Below are positions 3,101 through 61,240 of a stretch of DNA of 64,000 bases, one piece after another. Both the position numbers and the translations under genes were made by a program. Position 1 is the stretch's first letter; the number at the start of each line of letters is the position of its first letter. Below the pieces are notes generated by a model. It made no database searches and was not told the origin of the DNA. It worked only from the letters and a program-made list of their open reading frames with translations. Source of the DNA: Branchiostoma lanceolatum (Eukaryota; Chordata; Leptocardii; Amphioxiformes; Branchiostomatidae); assembly GCF_035083965.1 (NCBI RefSeq), contig NC_089727.1, positions 21,467,769 to 21,531,768 of the forward strand. The letters are read 5' to 3'.

Positions 3101-5402
3101 TTCCAAAATCATATCCAGTTGCTTCAGAGTAACTGCTATTTGGCGTAGTGGAGAAATATTTCTGTTGACATTGTAGATACGAGAACCACGAGGACGAGAT
3201 GGTGCGCCTGTTGCACAACCACGGTACGCTGGCGATCATCGTGGACGCCACGAGCTGGCAGGACTACCTGGGCGGCATCATCCAACACCACTGTTCACAC
3301 GACTACAACAACCACGCCGTGCAGATAGTGGGCTACAACATCAAGGGTGGGTATCACACTGTTGTTTTTATATAATTATCATGGGCTACAACATCAAGGG
3401 TGGGTATCATGCTGTTGTTCTTATCATCGGCTACAACATCAAGGGTGGGTATCACAACGCTGTTTCTGTCATGGGCTACAACATCAAGGGTAGACAGCAC
3501 ACTGCAGTTCTTACCATTGGCTACAGCATCAAGGGTGGGTGTCACACTGTTGTTCTTATCACAGGCTGCAACATCAAGGGTGGGTATCACACTGTTGTTC
3601 TTGTCACAGGCTACAACATCAAGGGTGGGTATCACACTGTTGTTCTTATCACAGGCTGCAACATCAAGGGTGGGTATCACACTGTTGTTCTTATCACAGG
3701 CTGCAACATCAAGGGTGGGTATCACACTGTTGTTCTTATCACAGGCTGCAACATCAAGGGTGGGTATCACACTGTTGTTCTTGTCACAGGCTACAACATC
3801 AAGGGTGGGTATCACACTGTTGTTCTTATCACAGGCTATAACATCAAGGGTGGGTATCACACTGCTGTTTCTACAGTAACTGTAAATCACTTGAATTAAT
3901 ATGGTGGTAGGAAAATATAGCGGTTGGGGGGAAATGGAGTAGGTCACGGCACTTAATTTTATATGTGGGAACAAACATAACTGTCTCAAATATTAGTGAT
4001 CAAATATTAGCGATGATGAAATTTTAGCTGTTGACTAGTGACCGTTAAATCAGCTAAAATTCAGTTACAGTTAACAAATCAAGAATTACAGTATATAATT
4101 ATATCATGGGTTACAGCATCAAGGGTGGGTATCACAATGCAGTTCTTATAATTGGCTGCAATATCAAGGGTGGGTATCACAATGCAGTTCTTATTATTAG
4201 CTGCGACATCAATGGTGGGTATCATAGTGTTATCTTCTTATCATGCCCGCTGCAAAAGCAAGAGAGGGTGTCATATGGCTATTTTCACCCTTTGCTACAA
4301 CGTCAAGATAGTGTCACCGTCACAGTTATTTTTCTCATTGCTTACAAAAGCATTGATTTGATGGGTATCATACCATTGTTTCAGTCGATAGCTGCTCCAC
4401 GCAGGTAAATGTTACAACATGATTGGTGTTGACTGTCGCACCACATGAAAAGTAGAGCTCCTACAAGCTGTAGTCACTACACCAGAATAGTGTGGCTGCA
4501 GTTTATGATTGATTCACTAGGGGTCCTCATTGCAGCATGTCCATTTCAGGGGATGTCCCTTACTTCATAGTGAGAAACTCCTGGGGTTCAGGCTGGGGGC
4601 TTGATGGATATCTGCACATCAGAATAGGCAGCAACCTGTGTGGTGAGTTTGATATATTTCTACTATGTAATTGAATGTGGTTTGTAAATCATTGTGAATA
4701 TCTATAAAGCTAGCTAGGTTTAAGCTTTTGTAAAATTTGTGTATAAATGTTATGGAACTTTTTTTGTGTTACTAACAACTTTCATTTAGAAAAAAATCTA
4801 TCCTACAGATTAGATATAATTGTCATGGACATGGGATGTATGTAATATGATTGCTACTGTTAAAAGTTTTTAGTTTTGCGGAAAACTTGTTTTGATATTA
4901 CCTTGATTTTGTTCCCAAATGATTTTCATCTCAAGTTTCGCCATGTTTTCTAAAATGTAATGATAAAAAAAATCGCATCTCTTTTTTAGTATTACTTCTA
5001 TCATGGAAGGCAAATATTGTTTTTGCTCCATTTCTTCTTCTGTTTCAAACACATAAGGTCAATGACCTGAACCAGACAGCTGTCTCTTCTTCTGTTTCAA
5101 ACAAATAAGGTCGATGACCTGAACCAGACAGCTGTCACCATGGTTACGGGTAAAGAAGCAGACACCCTGTGGTGTTTAGTTACATAATGTAGCAAGTGAC
5201 AGGACAGAGCTTGAGGGGCTGGTCAACATGTATATATTATGTGTTTGAGTAGGAATGAACTGAACAGTAGTATATATAAGGCTAGACAATAGGAAGAATA
5301 TCTTGTAGTTGCCTGCAAAAATTTGTTACCTTTTTAGTTGATTAAAATACTTAATTTCATTTTTCAGGTGTTGCCAATCAGGTGTCAACTGTGTCTGTGT
5401 GA
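102..5402 (+). CDS. CTSO: Cathepsin O-like papain-family cysteine protease, 3' part (7 exons, 5' end off window)
   Basis: Lysosomal-type C1A peptidase. Exons by splice sites and phase: 102-180, 1334-1414, 1934-2007, 2663-2704, 3177-3346, 4550-4642, 5368-5402 (TGA at 5400). They join without frame conflict into about 190 residues of a catalytic domain usually near 214. The first exon starts inside the Trp codon of the CWAFS active-site motif ([10 protein letters not shown] follows), so the catalytic Cys is in an exon left of the window. The catalytic His ([11 protein letters not shown]) and Asn ([13 protein letters not shown]) are present. The stretch [17 protein letters not shown] is what I recall as diagnostic of cathepsin O rather than L or B, and the tail ([14 protein letters not shown]) also fits. 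The exon ending at 3346 has its donor copied in a minisatellite just downstream. Tail to tail with PISD and TDO2. Confidence 0.9.
745..910 (+). repeat. Dispersed repeat in CTSO intron, copy A
   Basis: Shares its order of blocks with 5029-5255: TTTGCTC-ATTTCTTCTTC, AGGTCA-n-TGACCT, CCAGACGGCTGTCACCATGG, then TTACATAATG and GGACAGAGCT. No long reading frame. It contains a perfect inverted AGGTCA pair and a palindromic GTCACCATGGTTAC. Type of element unknown. Confidence 0.6.
782..794. promoter_or_regulatory. AGGTCA inverted repeat, 1-base spacer (nuclear-receptor-like half sites)
   Basis: AGGTCA-G-TGACCT is a perfect IR-1 arrangement of the nuclear receptor half site. It lies within a dispersed repeat and recurs at 5056-5068. 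Binding is inference. Confidence 0.3.
1668..1820. mobile_element. TACTGTAAATGCA-family MITE-like element
   Basis: Begins TACTGTAAATGCAGAAATGT and ends AATGCATTTACAGTA, so the ends are inverted copies. The interior has the family's GGTGGTTTTAT and GCGAAATAAAACCA blocks. Related copies: 12900-13094, 17854-18084, 30164-30385, 41079-41272, 42404-42705, 45751-45960. Confidence 0.65.
2191..2418. mobile_element. CTCCAAGCAGA-family MITE-like element
   Basis: Starts TCTCCAAGCAGAC and ends ATCTGCTTGGAGA, giving terminal inverted repeats of about 12 bp around 228 bp without coding potential. The same ends bound a second element at 61628-61737. Lies in a CTSO intron. Confidence 0.5.
3331..3880 (+). repeat. 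45-bp minisatellite built from the CTSO exon/intron junction, about 12 units
   Basis: Unit 1 (3331-3382) starts inside CTSO exon 3177-3346: GGCTACAACATCAAGG is exonic, and GTGGGTATCACAC begins the intron. Units restart at 3384, 3429, 3474, 3519, 3564, 3609, 3654, 3699, 3744, 3789 and 3834. Because 45 is divisible by three, open frames run through the array on both strands; they are repeat artefacts. Unit 1 itself reads into a TAA at 3373. Each unit keeps AAGG|GTGGGT, a usable 5' splice site, and the later units also end TTATCACAG, a usable 3' splice site. Confidence 0.95.
4106..4225 (+). repeat. Detached degenerate units of the CTSO junction minisatellite
   Basis: Three diverged units (for example TTACAGCATCAAGGGTGGG) at about 45-bp spacing, 230 bp after the main array and in the same intron. 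They point to an older, longer array or a second expansion. Confidence 0.8.
5029..5255 (+). repeat. Dispersed repeat in CTSO intron, copy B, with an internal 50-bp tandem duplication
   Basis: Second copy of the element at 745-910. Its front part (TCTTCTGTTTCAAACA...CAGACAGCTGTC) is duplicated in tandem, so the AGGTCA/TGACCT motif appears twice, once perfect (5056-5068) and once with one change. It ends just before the last CTSO exon. Confidence 0.6.
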
Positions 5403-10230: not shown

Positions 10231-13200
10231 TCAGAATGTGTAAGCGTTGAGGGCAGCTCTGGAGGACCCCTGAGTACCCTTTTCGGTCTCAACGCCGCAC
10301 TTGTGCCGCGGGTTGAAGCACCCGACGCTCTGACCGACCCGGATCTTTTGCCCGTGGTGCACGTTGAACACGAAACTTTTCGGGGCCTCGAAAACGAGGA
10401 CGATGGTTGAACCGATGTTGAATTCGCCGTACTGGTCCCCCTTGTGCAGTTCCACCCCCCTCCCCAAGTGGTCCAGGAAGATGTGATCGAAGAAGTCACC
10501 GTTGACATGGTTTTCCGCAGGGTTGTTTGTGTACAGGGCCTGGAGGGATTATGAAAAACAAAGTTTTACAAAATCAACATTCATCAAAAATCGTTGTGAA
10601 ATATTTGGAGTTTTTGTAATAATTTTATTAATTTCTTAATCGACAGAATATATCATAACCATGTCTATTTCACACATTACTCCACTTTCGCGGGTTCCTG
10701 GTTTTTGCCTGAGTGACAACGTTCCCTTATACTGCTAGTCTGCGGAAGAATCTTGGATGCAGCCCTGCTCAACCTTAACCATCCTGCCAATCTCCAGTTA
10801 CAACTCATGAGCTAGTAGTATAGACCAAACTTTGACCAAGGCACCAAGACAAACAAAGAAACAAACAAACCGAAAACAGACCCAAAAATATGTCAGACCT
10901 AAAGTGCAAGGGTTTTGCTAACACCCCATTACACATAGCTGAACATGGCTCCCGACCACTAAGCCAACTACATGTATGGTGGTATGTTGGAAGCAGTCTG
11001 ACCAGTTTTAGATTTATAGTCAAATATAACTCCTAAGCACAATCCTGACCACATAACTTGACTAACAGTACAAAGTAAAGCCAGCTCACCGTGTCAAAAT
11101 AGATCTTGACGGAGCCGACGTTGGTGGCGCCGACCGGGCTCATGGAGAAGAAGCCCTCGGACCAGCGACCGGACAGGACGACACGCTCGTTCAGGTTGAA
11201 GACGTTATTCACACAGTTGAGGATCCAGGGGTTGACAGTCACTAGGGCACCTGCGACAGAGGAACATACTTTACAGACTATAGAAGGGTTCAGTCACAGT
11301 TACTAAGCTTAATCACTAATATTGTGGAGCGGACAACAACATGAGGGCCTGCATGCTCTTTTCCATGAGGCGTAGGCAGCCTATTTTTATTTCCCGTAAT
11401 TCGTAGGGAAAGCCGTCTTAGTCATGTAATTAGTAGGAAGGACACCAAATTTAGTGTAATCGCCTTCCATAATTCTAGTGTAATACAGAGGGTGTTCTTC
11501 TGAATTCAGCGTAAAGCATTGTCAGGACCCCCCATGCGGACAATCCTACAAGCAAAGGTGGCAAGCGTCAAAGGTTAAATGACATGCCCCCTGACTTGGC
11601 AAGTGTCAAAGGTTCACTGACATGCCCCCTGACCTGGAAAGTGTCAAGGGTTAACTGACATGCCCCATGACCCGGAAAGCGGCAAAGGTTAACTGTCATG
11701 CCGCCTAACCTGGGAAGTGTCAATGAAAGTTTAACCCTTGACCCTTGACATTGGAAGTGCCAAAGGTTAACTAACCCTGATCTAGAAATTGTCAAAGGTT
11801 AAGAGTTATGCCGCCTGACCTGGAAAGTGTCAAAGGTTAAAAGTTATGCCCCCTGACCTGGGAAGTGTCAAAGGTTAAGAGTTATGCCCCCTGACCTGAG
11901 AAGTGTCAAAGGTTAAGAGTTAAGCCCCCTGACCTGGGAAGTGCCTCCTGTGCAGGACCTCCCAGTCTGCGGGTGAGTGAAAGCGGTGGTAGTCGCCCGG
12001 TGCGAGGTAGATGGTGATGTGGAACAAGCTGTTGACATCAGGGTGCTCCAGGATCATGTTCTGGTAGTCGTCTATTCCAACTTCCTCCTGTGGACAAAAA
12101 ATATCAAAAAAGGGAAAACATTTTAGACTGCCAGCCATGTTTCTGATACTATCACTAGCCTCTGCTATATCTAGTTGTAGGTAGCATGTGTAGTGAAGTA
12201 GTTAGTGGCCCTGCCTCTGAAACTAGAAGCCGTGAGTTTGATCCTGGCTGTGTCACTCACCCTACATGCACGCTACAAGAGGGGTTGAGGTCCTTAGGAC
12301 AGGACAATAAGCCACAGTTCACTGTTAATTTGTTACTTTTCCTATTCCTTTAACTATTATAGTACTATTAGTCATTTCTTTTTCTTCTGGGGGGGAGGGG
12401 CTTTTTATACTAGATACAGAGTGGGCCTAAACAATTTGATTTGGAAATTTTGGTTGACCTCTGACCTCATAACCTTTCGCCAATCCCCAGTTGTTGTTAC
12501 TGCGGCCCAGGAACCTCTCGAGCGAGTAGGTCACGCCCTTGACCTGCTCCAGTTGGCTGTTGGTCACGCGGCCGAAATGCACCACTGTCCCATCCGCAGG
12601 GCTCACCTGTAGGGAGAAAATGGCATCTCATCAGATCGTCACATATTGTATGTGTACATGTATTTGTTTGTGTTTCTGGAGCAATACTTAATGAATGAAT
12701 GAATGAATGAATGAAGACCTTTATTGTATGTTCGTGCCCCCAGGGGCTAGATACAGGTCATTTATCATAAACCTAACTAACATGTAAGTGACATACATGT
12801 ATACAGTGAAATATATACAGCATGGTAGACGAAAGTAATAAGCTAAGCTAATCCAGTAGAGTCAACTTAATAAGAACCTATGGATGGATTGTGATGATAG
12901 TTAATGCAGAAATGTTTGCAGCGACTGTTTTCACGCGAACTTCAAAACACCGCTAACATTTTTGTCCAATACAATGTAGTAGTATGTTACTATAGCGCTG
13001 CCGCTAACTCAAAACCACCACAAACACTCCATTCTGGCCATAGCGCGAATTGCCGCGAAATAAAAACCACACGAATTTAAATGCATTTACAGTATGTGGG
13101 CATGTTTTGGGAGATGAAGGTGAACTCAGAATTTTGGCCCCCAGGCAGAAATTCTTGGTACTGCAGCAGAACCTCCTTTTATTGTATCTTTTGCCCTGGG

Positions 13201-23715: not shown

Positions 23716-46876
<23,161 letters not shown>

Positions 46877-52162: not shown

Positions 52163-55100
52163 TTATGAGACGGGTGCCTGAAACCTAGACCAATAAGAAT
52201 ATAGAATATTACGAACCCTCATGAACTGCCGAGTCTCCCCACCACGTGCCACATCAAACGCATTCTTTCCATCCTGTATAGGGAGACATTGGATGTTATG
52301 ATCGTGGTAGTCTTGAAAAATGTGCAAACTATCATTGCCAAGGGACGGACATAAAAACATCACATATCTAATATACGCTCAACAATAGTCCTAGGGGCAG
52401 AATGACCAGAGTCAAATTGTTGGGTCACTCGAAACCTATACACAGCTAGAGTTCCACGACCCCATATCTTATCATTTATCTATGCATTGAAATGCAAATG
52501 ATATGCAAAGAAATCTCTTATCAGTATAATAGTAAATTTATTACCTTCTTTTTCCAAATCACAAATGTTGCCAATGAGAGATTATTGTCGCATTTCCTCA
52601 ATAATTATGCAAATTATGTACATAGTCTATGTCCGATTATATCTCTAATGGTATGTCAACACGTGTCGTTAGTATGTCCTATTTTAATAGCGAAATCAAC
52701 ACACTATTACATTGGTCTTCATCAATTAAAGTTGCAAACAGCTCAACAATATCTTGCAAATATATTCATCCCATCTCGACTTATCCTGTTTGGAGGTTAA
52801 TCGCCCCCTGCAGTTGCTAGTAGGTCCAAACATTTGTTGCTTCTTCCCGGAAACATGAGGTATCTACCAACCAAAATTTGTGACCAGAGCTTGAGATATC
52901 TAAACCCAAAATGCCGCTGCAGTACCATGGAAAGGGGCTAGGAGGCCCAAAATCTAATCATTTCGAGGTCTTGTCAAGACCTACCCACAAATTTTAAGAC
53001 AATCCATCCAGACTCGAGTTATCCTGTTCACAGACGATCATACAGACAGACTTTGTGGCGGAGGTGATAACGGTCAGTACAAAAGGAACATGATTTAGTA
53101 CACTAAGTCCGGTTTCTTTCTTTCATACTTTCTAAATGTGCCGAAATATTTCTCCGCCTACAAGGTCTCGATACGTATTTCGGGAACTTTGCTTGAATAT
53201 TTGTTTTCGTGCTGTGTTTCGTACTGCCCAGCCTCATATATATGAGATTATTGGCAGTTATCATAGCCTATTAGCCGGATCTCTCTTTGTGTTGTCTATG
53301 AGGTCAATCTCGAGCAAGTCTATAGTTATTATATATTACCTTATTGCGGGCCATTACATCAGCACCGGACCGAATCAGAAGCTCACAAATTCCAGTGTTG
53401 CCCCTTTCAGCAGCCTCGTGTAGGGGGGTATTCAGGTCCTGTAGAGAAAAACAGGTCAGTGTACGTAAGTAGTGGTGGGTTACGATTTGTTAGAAGCGGC
53501 AATGGTGTCGTTACAGGGTGCAACGTAGTCGACGTGAGACAAAGTTCCCATCTGGACAGACTGAGTTTGAATTCATTATGGGCAACACTTCTGATGGTGA
53601 TTTATTGAAAGATCTTGCCCGAAAGATTCTTCCAAGTAGTTACTAAGTTAAACGTACAGTTTGTTAAAACGGCCGGTGACATAGAAACAAGTGATCAAGC
53701 TGAAAACCAATGGGCTAGATCTAGCTCAGTTGGATTTACTTTTTTGTAAGGTGTGCGGATGACTACAATCCGCAATTGAAGACATGTTAAGAGCTCTAAA
53801 CTTGCAATTGTCTAGTTTGATGTACATGTTGATAGTCTTGAAGGTAATGCAATATGTATTACCGAGTTCCTGGACATGATGTTTGCGCCAGAACGAATCA
53901 GAACCTCGCAGGTCCATGTGTGGTCATACATAGCAGCAATATGGAGTGGTGTACACTGGCCCTGTGTATAAAAAAAAAAAAAACTAGTCAGCTGCTAGTT
54001 GTATAGCAGCTGACTGTCACCTTCCTCATGGCAGTACCGACTGGTACTATTTCACGCTGCAGGTACTAGTATGTGCCGCGCGCTGCTAACAATTCGGTCC
54101 TAAACGTAACGCATCGTCATATATGCAAAGTTGGGGCAGAGTAATTTTTACTTGTGACGTCGCGTGAGGTTGACCCAGAACCAAGAGGTCCTGTGTTCGA
54201 ACCCCCTGGTATTCCCCGTTGACGTTTCGACTACAAGATTAATGAAGTACCATATGCGCATGCACTGTCACTAATGGGTCATTCAATAAAAACAAAACAA
54301 ACAAACAAACAAACAAACAAATGTTGGGTCCTCGGGAAAGGCACTTAACACGAATTTCCTTATTTAACTTAATAAGCACTAAGATGATTAGTACTAAGCT
54401 TAAATTAGGGACATCACTTGGATAGGGCTTTAAATAGAGGTCTCGTGTTTGAAGAGAGCCATACCTCGAACACGCAAAAGAAACAACAACACTTATCGAA
54501 AAGAGTAATCGTCGTTCTAGGTGTGCGTGGATCAAATAGAAGTGTGCGGAAATGCAGCTTGTACTCATTAGTACAAGCCTGGTGTGTTATACGGTTTATC
54601 GGGTATGCAGTACAAACAATATAATCAATCAACCATTCAAACAAACAAACAAACAAACAATCAGTAAAAAAAAACAGATGCTTACTGCTAAGTCCTTCGC
54701 CTCCAGATTGTCGCCGTGTTGAATCAGCAGTTCTGCCACCTCTGCATGCCCTGACATGCTAGCTAGATGCAATGGTGTTTGATGAATCTGTCGGGGAAAA
54801 CAGCATTTAAGTCATATCATAAAAATTCTATCCAAATACAGCACTTCTTCCTTGTGCAAAAATATCAAGAATCTGCTGTGTGACAAATCGTGAAGTATAA
54901 AGAACACGGCCAGTAAGATTACCCCACCAATGTTTACCAAGTGTTTGAAGTCCTTGAGCTGAAATCCATCCTGCAGACCACCTTCCAGCCCCCTCCTCAC
55001 AGTCTGCACATCTCCGAACAACACGGCTTGATGGAACGTCCCCGCATCCACCTTGGGAGGGGCTGCTCCAATCAATACGGAATGGAGATGAAATAATGTT

Positions 55101-56047
55101 TATCATATCATTTATGATATTCCGTACCACTAGCCCTTAAACTTTCTCTTGCACCTCTTTTCAAGCGTTTTTATCAGATGCAGGTTTTCCTTTTGTCAGC
55201 AAGCGAGCTAGTCATTGAGTGTGTTGTGAGTTTATGTGTGTGTCTGTGTTTTTTTTATTATCTATCTAATTTTTTTTTGTCTCTCAGTCTGTCTGTGCGT
55301 ATGTATGCATGTGTATGTGTGCGTTGTGCATGTGCATGTATGTGTGTACATGTGTGTGTATGTCTCTCTCTCCGTCTGTGAGTGGGTGGGAGTGTTCTAC
55401 ACATTTGTTAATCCCATAAGCCATGTCTATCACAAACCTGCAGGACGAGTCACGTGACGTCTTGTGGTAGACAGCCGTTGCATGATCTCAGCAGCGATGC
55501 TTCGCAGCTCATTCTTAATATCATCTCTCTGTACACGTCTCGCACTCATCTGTTTCAACGTGGGGGAGTACTTTCCTACAGCCTCACTGAATGCCTTGAA
55601 GTTGTCTTTGTTAGCATCAACCCAAATGGGGAACACTGGTTTGTTGTTTCTCAGGCATGTTTCAAATTCTAGCCTAGGCCAGTAGGATTTGTTAAGGAAT
55701 GATGTGCTGACGACGATGACAGCAAGCTCTAAACTTTCACTCGATAAGGTCGAAATTATTCTGTCCCTGATGGCGTCACCAGGTTTAAGGGAAACATCAT
55801 CGAAAAATATGTCTTTTTCAGGCAAACCCTGTTGTTGCAGGGTGCCGACCAATGGGCGGACAAAGGAGCCTTTGTCTTCGCCTGCGTGGATGATAAATAC
55901 ACGAGGCTCTGGAAAAAGAGGAGATAAAAAAAATATAAATTTCGCTGAGAGCCAAAGACACTTGAGTTGGTATCATATTTAACAAGAGTTCATCGACATA
56001 GTACCTTCGCAATCCAACGTTCCTCTCATTAGCTCTGCATTGAACAT
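52163..56047 (-). CDS. TIR domain plus ankyrin repeat protein, seven exons
   Basis: Exons in transcript order: 56047-56005, 55908-55438, 55062-54938, 54787-54686, 53961-53863, 53438-53340, 52273-52163 (stop). Phases fit and give 349 residues. TIR domain, residues 16-165: RVFIIHAGEDKGSFVRPLV (first strand), DIFFDDVSLKPGDAIRDRI (BB loop with PGD), AVIVVSTSFLNKSYWPRLEFE. The Trp91-x3-Glu95 spacing matches the catalytic Glu of NAD-cleaving TIRs (plant S-x-WCLDE). Then FHQAVLFGDVQTVRRGLEGG and ankyrin repeats, one exon each: TPLHLASMSGHAEVAELLI, TPLHIAAMYDHTWTCEVLI, TPLHEAAERGNTGICELLI, and a last degenerate DGKNAFDVARGG. No membrane segment or signal peptide. Probably an intracellular immune or stress protein; no orthologue name offered. 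The start is uncertain because the frame stays open 20 codons upstream into a MITE. Confidence 0.85.
52445..53075. repeat. CTAGAGTTCCACGACC-family repeat in a TIR-ankyrin intron
   Basis: CTAGAGTTCCACGACCCC at 52446, CCGCTGCAGTACCATGG at 52914, ACTCGAGTTATCCTGTTCAC at 53012 and CAGACAGAC then GGCGGAGGTGATAA at the end. Colinear with 14646-15976. Confidence 0.55.
54165..54545 (+). mobile_element. tRNA-derived SINE with AAAC-type repeat inside
   Basis: B box GTGTTCGAACCCC at 54193, CAAACAAACAAACAAACAAA run, CCTCGGGAAAGGCACTTAAC, AAATTAGGGACATCAC, GAAGAGAGCCATACCTCG, CACTTATCGAAAAGAGTA, GTGTGCGTGGATCAAAT. Same body order as 45035-45310. Confidence 0.65.
55236..55385 (+). repeat. GT/TG-rich simple sequence
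   Basis: TGTGTGTCTGTG, TGTGCGTTGTGCATGTGCATG and similar blocks. In the TIR-ankyrin intron just downstream of the TIR exon. Confidence 0.75.
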
Positions 56048-60500: not shown

Positions 60501-60932
60501 GACTTCGTCGGCGTCCATGGGCGCCGCCATGCTGGATTTGATGTCACGCGAGGGCCATCTTGTTTTGCTCAGAATGTGTTTCATCGTCACCTTGGTTTCA
60601 CTTATACTCTGGGGGCTGGGAGAGATCCAGAGGGACTATTCATCTTACACGAGGTTTAGGAAGGAGAGAACATATATCGACTTCATTTTCATGAATTCAT
60701 GGAATGGGAGAAAGGAAACATACATTTCACACGAGGTTGAATGTGTCTGGGAAAAGGTCTGGGAAGAGGGGGACCATCCGCTTTAAATAAACTTTAGGGA
60801 ATGGTAGAGAGGGGCTGTTCATTTCATTTAGATTGGGCTCAAGGGTCCGGAATGGGCAATCTGTTTTACATTGGGTGGCTGTCTAGGTAGAGAGGAACTA
60901 TCCATTTCACGTGGGATGAAGGATCTGGGAAA

Positions 60933-61240
60933 GGAAGGATCATCCATTTTACATGGGGTAGAGGGTCTTAAAAGGAAGGATCATCCATTTTACATGGGGT
61001 AGAGGGTCTTAAAAGGAAGGATCATCCATTTTACATGGGGTAGAGGGTCTTAAAAGGGAGGGACCATCCATTTGACATGGGGTTGAGATTCTGCGGGAAA
61101 GTAAAGGGATCATCCATTTCACATGGGGTAAAGGTCTGGAAAGGGAGGGACCATCCATTTCACATAAAATTTAGAGGCTGGGAGAGAGGGACCATGCATT
61201 TTAGGTGAGGTTTGGGGGAGGGAACATCCATTTCATGCCA
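60933..61240 (+). repeat. 41-bp minisatellite, three perfect units then degenerate ones
   Basis: GGAAGGATCATCCATTTTAC then ATGGGGTAGAGGGTCTTAAAA: identical units at 60933-60973, 60974-61014 and 61015-61055. Further diverged units (GGGACCATCCATTT-ACAT) run on to 61240, with looser relatives from about 60640. Confidence 0.9.

Follow-up and report, generated by a model that had tools for sequence, protein, structure and literature searches.

The window analysed here, a stretch of 64,000 nucleotides from Branchiostoma lanceolatum (contig NC_089727.1, positions 21,467,769 to 21,531,768), contains the genes CTSO, PISD and TDO2 as neighbours of one another; CTSO and TDO2 are also adjacent in vertebrates. 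A papain-family gene on the plus strand fills the first 5.4 kb, its start lying beyond the window edge. Its exons at 102-180, 1334-1414, 1934-2007, 2663-2704, 3177-3346, 4550-4642 and from 5368 to the stop give one continuous protein; the exon ends were adjusted by hand and the splice sites were scored at these same positions. PDB chains, e.g. that of cruzain, align to residues 1-187 of the 190 in the joined model, although those named among the best 60 of 168 PDB matches are other papain-family enzymes and cathepsin O is absent from these 60. Together with its match to the Pfam family Peptidase_C1 (PF00112, E 3.4e-44), the 60% identity that 57 aa share with a CTSO segment, which served as an approximate query in place of a CTSO protein database, suggests that the gene is CTSO-type, as the earlier note had proposed. 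The TDO2-like exons were located at 23737-40593 on the minus strand by tblastn with a likewise approximate protein query. Several other elements were seen in the window, namely a MITE-like element at 1660-1830 (TACTGTAAATGCAGAAATGTT...) with related pieces near 12962, 18043, 30164, 42401 and 45750, a 52-bp direct duplication (5033-5136, 96% alike) in the last CTSO intron that by eye resembles a stretch near 780, and frames at 53300-56000 on the minus strand that by eye resemble ankyrin repeats and a TIR domain.

The CTSO exon at 3177-3346 ends in phase 1 at AAGG, as judged by translation, splice sites, the Peptidase_C1 match and the papain-family matches in the PDB, and the acceptor of the next exon (4550-4642; translation, Pfam and frame test) is in frame with its donor. 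Joining AAGG/ to /GGGATG at acceptor 4550 (here and below, a slash in a motif marks the splice point) produces the protein that matches Peptidase_C1, so the exon end given in the earlier note is the right one. A donor moved by 4 bases (TGG/GTATCA) was rejected, since a check by hand shows that it loses the frame with acceptor 4550, and since its score is -3.83 compared with 3.49.

This exon end is part of a minisatellite whose unit comprises the last 16 exon bases and 29 intron bases (GGCTACAACATCAAGG/GTGGGTATCAC...). Tandem repeats over exon-intron boundaries are known from Adh3 of B. floridae and B. lanceolatum, where they were named "mirages" (excerpts of PMC3087553); the amphioxus Adh precedent named in the earlier note is thereby confirmed second-hand (also in excerpts of PMC3902484). 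Cutting the CTSO array at the donor delimits 12 contiguous units and three more, 15 clear units in all. Unit 1 (3331-3383, plus strand) has 53 bp, of which 16 are exonic and 37 intronic, and thus exceeds the other contiguous units by eight bases; it contains the donor AAGG/GTGGGT at 3347 and an in-frame TAA at 3373. Units 2-12 (3384-3878, plus strand; TRF and alignment) have 45 bp each. TRF itself reports a 45-bp repeat with 11.0 copies at 3376-3869 (score 757), plus 2.4 further copies at 4117-4224. The earlier note was correct in letting the unit begin 16 bases within the exon and reach 29 bases into the intron, although unit 1 reaches 37, and the approximately 12 donor copies placed at 3331-3880 correspond to the 12 contiguous units at 3331-3878, but the array is longer, having three more units and decayed ones.

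The two parts of the array are separated by a MITE-like stretch of about 230 bases (3879-4108, exact ends uncertain) with imperfect inverted arms at 3873-3899 and 4045-4071 (70%), of which no close full copy was found in the window. By eye, the bases preceding unit 2 (TATATAATTATCATGGG, 3367-3384) look like those preceding unit 13 (TATATAATTATATCATGGG, 4088-4109). It is as if the stretch had been inserted beside an old unit of the 53-bp type. Units 13-15 (4109-4246, plus strand; TRF, unit scan and alignment) are diverged, and they are followed by one to three decayed units (4247-4387, plus strand; unit model scan and alignment). The decayed unit at 4248 is fairly clear, with a score of 19.3 in the unit weight matrix where the background maximum is -1.3, albeit with an nhmmer E-value of only 0.033 over the window, and those at 4293 (-12.2) and 4345 (-17.5) are weak.

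Units 8 and 9, 6 and 10, and 7 and 11 are identical, whereas units 2-4 and 12-15 differ from each other at 5-22 of 45 bases. Since the middle units are identical in pairs and the end units are divergent, the core appears to have turned over recently and the ends appear to be old. Identical units are also prone to collapse or expansion in assembly, and one globin mirage was apparently misassembled in a draft genome, according to excerpts of PMC3087553; for the core of identical units, the count may be no more than an estimate by the assembly. That the number of units, as opposed to the existence of the array, is an assembly artefact is nonetheless unlikely, given that units 2-5 and 12-15 have private differences and flank a foreign stretch.

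Of the 1203 bases of the intron, 670 belong to clear units (56%, or 67% when the decayed ones are included), and one may consider whether the array created the whole intron by tandem duplication rather than enlarging it. Intron gain of this kind was proposed from mirages (PMC3087553), and introns made by repeat expansion have been described in Cryptococcus (PMC2395259), both as given in excerpts of these papers. However, an intron gained in this way should end in a unit-derived acceptor, while the last ~160 bases, including the acceptor, are not unit-like, and this origin is very unlikely.

The donor hexamer GTGGGT is present in 14 of the 15 clear units, that is in 11 of the 12 contiguous ones (10 of 11 in units 2-12) and in all three of the diverged units 13-15, the exception being unit 4, whose donor at 3490 reads GTAGAC. 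The proposal that every unit repeats a full donor, so that the splicing machinery faces a dozen equals, is accordingly right as to the repetition but not for unit 4. The true donor scores 3.49, which places it at the 98th percentile of the GT dinucleotides across the window and fourth among the six CTSO donors, and of these six it is predicted to pair most stably with the U1 5' end (-11.3 kcal/mol); both values are approximate, coming from human-type weight tables and an assumed U1 5' end. Predicted local accessibility was low at all 15 donors, with no advantage for 3347. RNA folding was therefore rejected as what singles out the first donor, since predicted accessibility does not favour it.

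Relative to the consensus, the 14 intronic units have changes at 17 of 308 sites in the donor-side half and at 49 of 322 in the tail (Fisher p 7.5e-5, with the caveat that units are not independent). The register is inexact, with the quietest 22-column stretch lying about 5 columns later than exon plus donor (13 changes vs. 17). Because of this offset and of the non-independence of units, donor-side conservation is weak evidence. The lower change in the donor-side half would not be expected from plain neutral decay, and it could be taken, together with the persistence of GTGGGT even in the diverged units 13-15, to mean that the additional donors serve as functional decoys or as platforms for U1 loading and so tune CTSO output, by retention or by U1-dependent protection against early polyadenylation. 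With the conservation register inexact, and since an equal bias would follow if units exchanged sequence with the exon copy, which is under constraint, we regard such a function as extremely improbable.

When transcripts are read past the first donor they meet the TAA at 3373, as had been pointed out, the frame being open at 3169-3372. This stop sits in the stretch that lengthens unit 1 by eight bases, and units 2-12 are open in the frame that encodes GYNIK. All 14 later donors, when joined directly, reach stop 3373, and the first donor with acceptor 4550 alone gives the natural protein. The earlier claim that only the first donor yields a correct protein thus stands for direct joins, but it does not extend to internal exons, for which 28 of 49 acceptor-donor pairs are in frame.

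These pairs arise because seven units have an AG of their own. Units 6-12 (3564-3849, plus strand) read CACAG/GC(TAC/TGC/TAT)AACATCAAGG/GT, preceded by ...TGTTGTTCTT(A/G)TCACAG, with the AG 15 nt upstream of the donor, so that by acceptor score and frame test each holds a candidate symmetric exon of 15 nt. By the human-type table the seven unit acceptors (3565, 3610, 3655, 3700, 3745, 3790 and 3835) score 6.23 vs. 2.52 at the true acceptor 4550; the former value lies at the 99th percentile of the AG dinucleotides across the window and exceeds four of the seven acceptors of the CTSO gene. About half of the CTSO copies thus look, by their letters, like tiny exons. Inclusion of a 15-nt piece would insert GYNIK or GCNIK in frame; the piece itself (15 nt) and the period of the array (45 bp) are both multiples of three. 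Among the 49 pairs of a unit acceptor with a downstream donor, a test that left out the AGs at 3527 and 3877 near the array (scores 2.40 and 3.24), the 28 that are open and in frame are those ending in units 6-12, and the remaining 21, ending in units 13-15, fail the frame test. In random 45-bp tandem units an acceptor of at least 6.2 occurred in 435 of 20000 trials and one of at least 2.5 in 2453 of 20000.

The acceptor result, spotted post hoc, is a lead rather than a test. A neutral origin of the array does not predict seven high-scoring acceptors. One may consider that units 6-12 form a latent array of microexons, spliced at least weakly as exons of 15 nt or of 60, 105... nt, whose GYNIK/GCNIK repeats would be placed behind the active-site His strand of the protease. 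Human UBC, which yields isoforms differing in unit number via tandem splice sites (excerpts of PMC10809524), gives a precedent, and the scores above the gene's own, the open frames and the rarity of acceptors of at least 6.2 among random units point the same way. On the other hand, adjacent units leave an intron of 30 nt, the score derives from approximate human-type frequencies and was examined after the sequence was seen, and an acceptor that equals or exceeds the true one (2.5) came up in the 2453 random units given above. Exons of 15 nt are, moreover, difficult to define. We consider it highly improbable that these microexons are spliced; most likely the extra acceptors in units 6-12 are by-products of array drift that are rarely or never used.

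The exon boundaries of CTSO, PISD and TDO2 (19 donors and 21 acceptors, one TDO2 acceptor being left out and the first CTSO acceptor having 91 searchable bases) were compared with their neighbouring introns, and a strong intron copy was found at two of the donors and at none of the acceptors. At the CTSO boundary (3346) the surrounding 32 bases are found again 32/32, 262 bases into the intron, and at the PISD boundary (11933) 26/32; the other 38 boundaries range from 14/32 to 20/32. Background draws could include the site itself, which gave many maxima of 32, and rows without such a self-hit have 19-21. Since 32/32 recurs where the 38 other boundaries reach 14-20/32, chance is excluded for the CTSO array.

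The PISD exon (11934-12087, minus strand; Pfam PF02666) ends in ...HRRHFPG with the donor CAG/GTCAGG, the first intron base being 11933, and its end at 11934 (...CACAGGAGGCACTTCCCAG/GTCAGGGGGCTTAA) gives an in-frame join to the exon at 11250. Across this donor lies a second mirage (11559-11943, minus strand; 38-bp units by TRF), in which the exon tail CACTTCCCAG with its donor returns about every 38 bases in variable form. Reading through the first PISD donor leads to a stop after FPGQGA. Intact AG/GT with a pyrimidine-rich lead is present in five of the eight downstream units listed, a list that omits one irregular unit between 11781 and 11709. Scored as acceptors, these five reach 3.85, 3.90, 4.51, 5.84 and 3.90 vs. 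4.10 at the true acceptor, so that two exceed it and three are slightly lower; in random 38-bp units an acceptor of at least 3.8 occurred in 1107 trials. The PISD array is the same phenomenon as the CTSO array, unrelated to it and on the opposite strand.

That every tandem array in the window is a mirage was rejected, as among the four TRF arrays with at least 5 units of at least 20 bp only those at CTSO and PISD are mirages. A TDO2 intron contains the 21-bp array at 36997-37181, which is ~1.4 kb away from the closest exon located; ATG/GTAACC donor-like sites occur in several of its minus-strand units, away from an exon edge. For the 41/83-bp array at 60892-61165, no Pfam match was found across 58.7-63.7 kb; its reverse-complement consensus has an acceptor-like motif, CCTTTTCCAG/A.

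It is probable that the CTSO array is a mirage minisatellite in which the first donor is used nearly always and the extra acceptors are by-products of drift, and most likely both the CTSO and the PISD arrays are neutral. A small duplication over the exon 3' end and its 5' splice site would have seeded the minisatellite. As the divergence of units suggests, the array would then have expanded in the intron by slippage or unequal exchange, being homogenised in its middle and decayed at its far end, while the exon-adjacent unit would be kept in place by coding. The first donor would be chosen nearly always as the sole natural exon end. Since the copies share the donor sequence, it is probably not donor strength but exon definition, acting from the body of the exon, that makes the choice. 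A message spliced from a wrong donor would run into the stop at 3373 and presumably be removed by decay. The arrays would be tolerated because the first donor is used.

A very unlikely alternative to this neutral history is that mirages evolve into complete splice modules, every unit carrying both a 3' and a 5' site, whereby splicing errors within the array would keep the frame; the PISD units would then be zero-length (recursive, AG/GT) and the CTSO units 15-nt symmetric microexons. Even occasional use of such modules would make the CTSO array an exon nursery whose count varies between individuals and cells, and GYNIK repeats would be added to the protease. The CTSO pre-mRNA, in which over a dozen copies of the same sequence follow the one correct donor, is a natural test of 5' splice-site choice at constant strength, and if unit number varies, donor choice can be tested by genotype. 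The acquired acceptors offer an observable route from minisatellite to new exon. Finally, two mirages among 19 donors in a 64-kb window hint that such arrays may be common in this genome.

Mirages as such were already known in amphioxus, and what is added here are the acceptors within the CTSO units and the second mirage at PISD. By anatomy the CTSO array is a mirage, i.e. an added locus of a known repeat type, since its unit straddles the exon-intron boundary (15 clear units) and copies the splice signal (14 of 15). According to excerpts of PMC3087553, minisatellite-like duplications cover exon-intron borders in the amphioxus globin genes BflGb6 and BflGb9, and two haplotypes differ in unit number (6 and 3); the same paper cites Adh3 and two further mirage loci, and its authors' own RT-PCR together with the Adh3 data suggests that splicing stays regular despite mirages. 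Excerpts of PMC3902484 name Adh, TnC and PGBD5 as mirage loci, and from both papers the unit length is 10-72 bp in Adh3 and 150-160 bp in the globins. Compared with these loci, the CTSO array has units of 45 bp and at least 15 of them, and seven of its units have an acceptor that leads to a frame-preserving 15-nt exon, a combination absent from the published descriptions found, in so far as their excerpts extend.

With recursive splice sites (zero-length exons) the PISD units, as candidate sites only, share the pyrimidine-rich lead and CAG/GTCAGG. Known recursive sites occur singly and in long introns, whereas PISD has an array in a short intron, three of its five acceptors being slightly below the true one.

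A likeness in arrangement is also offered by arrays of dual-specific splice sites, such as those of human UBC and VCX3A (excerpts of PMC10809524), which, as here, consist of tandem units with both 3' and 5' signals. The UBC gene, whose dual-specific AGGT sites are arrayed in tandem, yields spliced products that vary in unit number, and introns with dual-specific sites are enriched in tandem repeats (same excerpts). The PISD units resemble such sites in having AG/GT at one point (five of the eight downstream units listed), while the AG and GT of the seven CTSO units are 15 nt apart and do not form a dual-specific AG/GT; our literature search returned no paper linking dual-specific splice sites with amphioxus among the matches listed. 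In addition, UBC units are coding, whereas CTSO and PISD units are intronic and lie after the true donor. Repeat units with splice signals also alter gene structure in Cryptococcus (PMC2395259) and in human segmental duplications (PMC2812944), according to excerpts of these papers. The CTSO array is like these tandem-repeat introns in that repeat units bearing splice signals reshape the structure of a gene, with the difference that here the array enlarges an existing intron.
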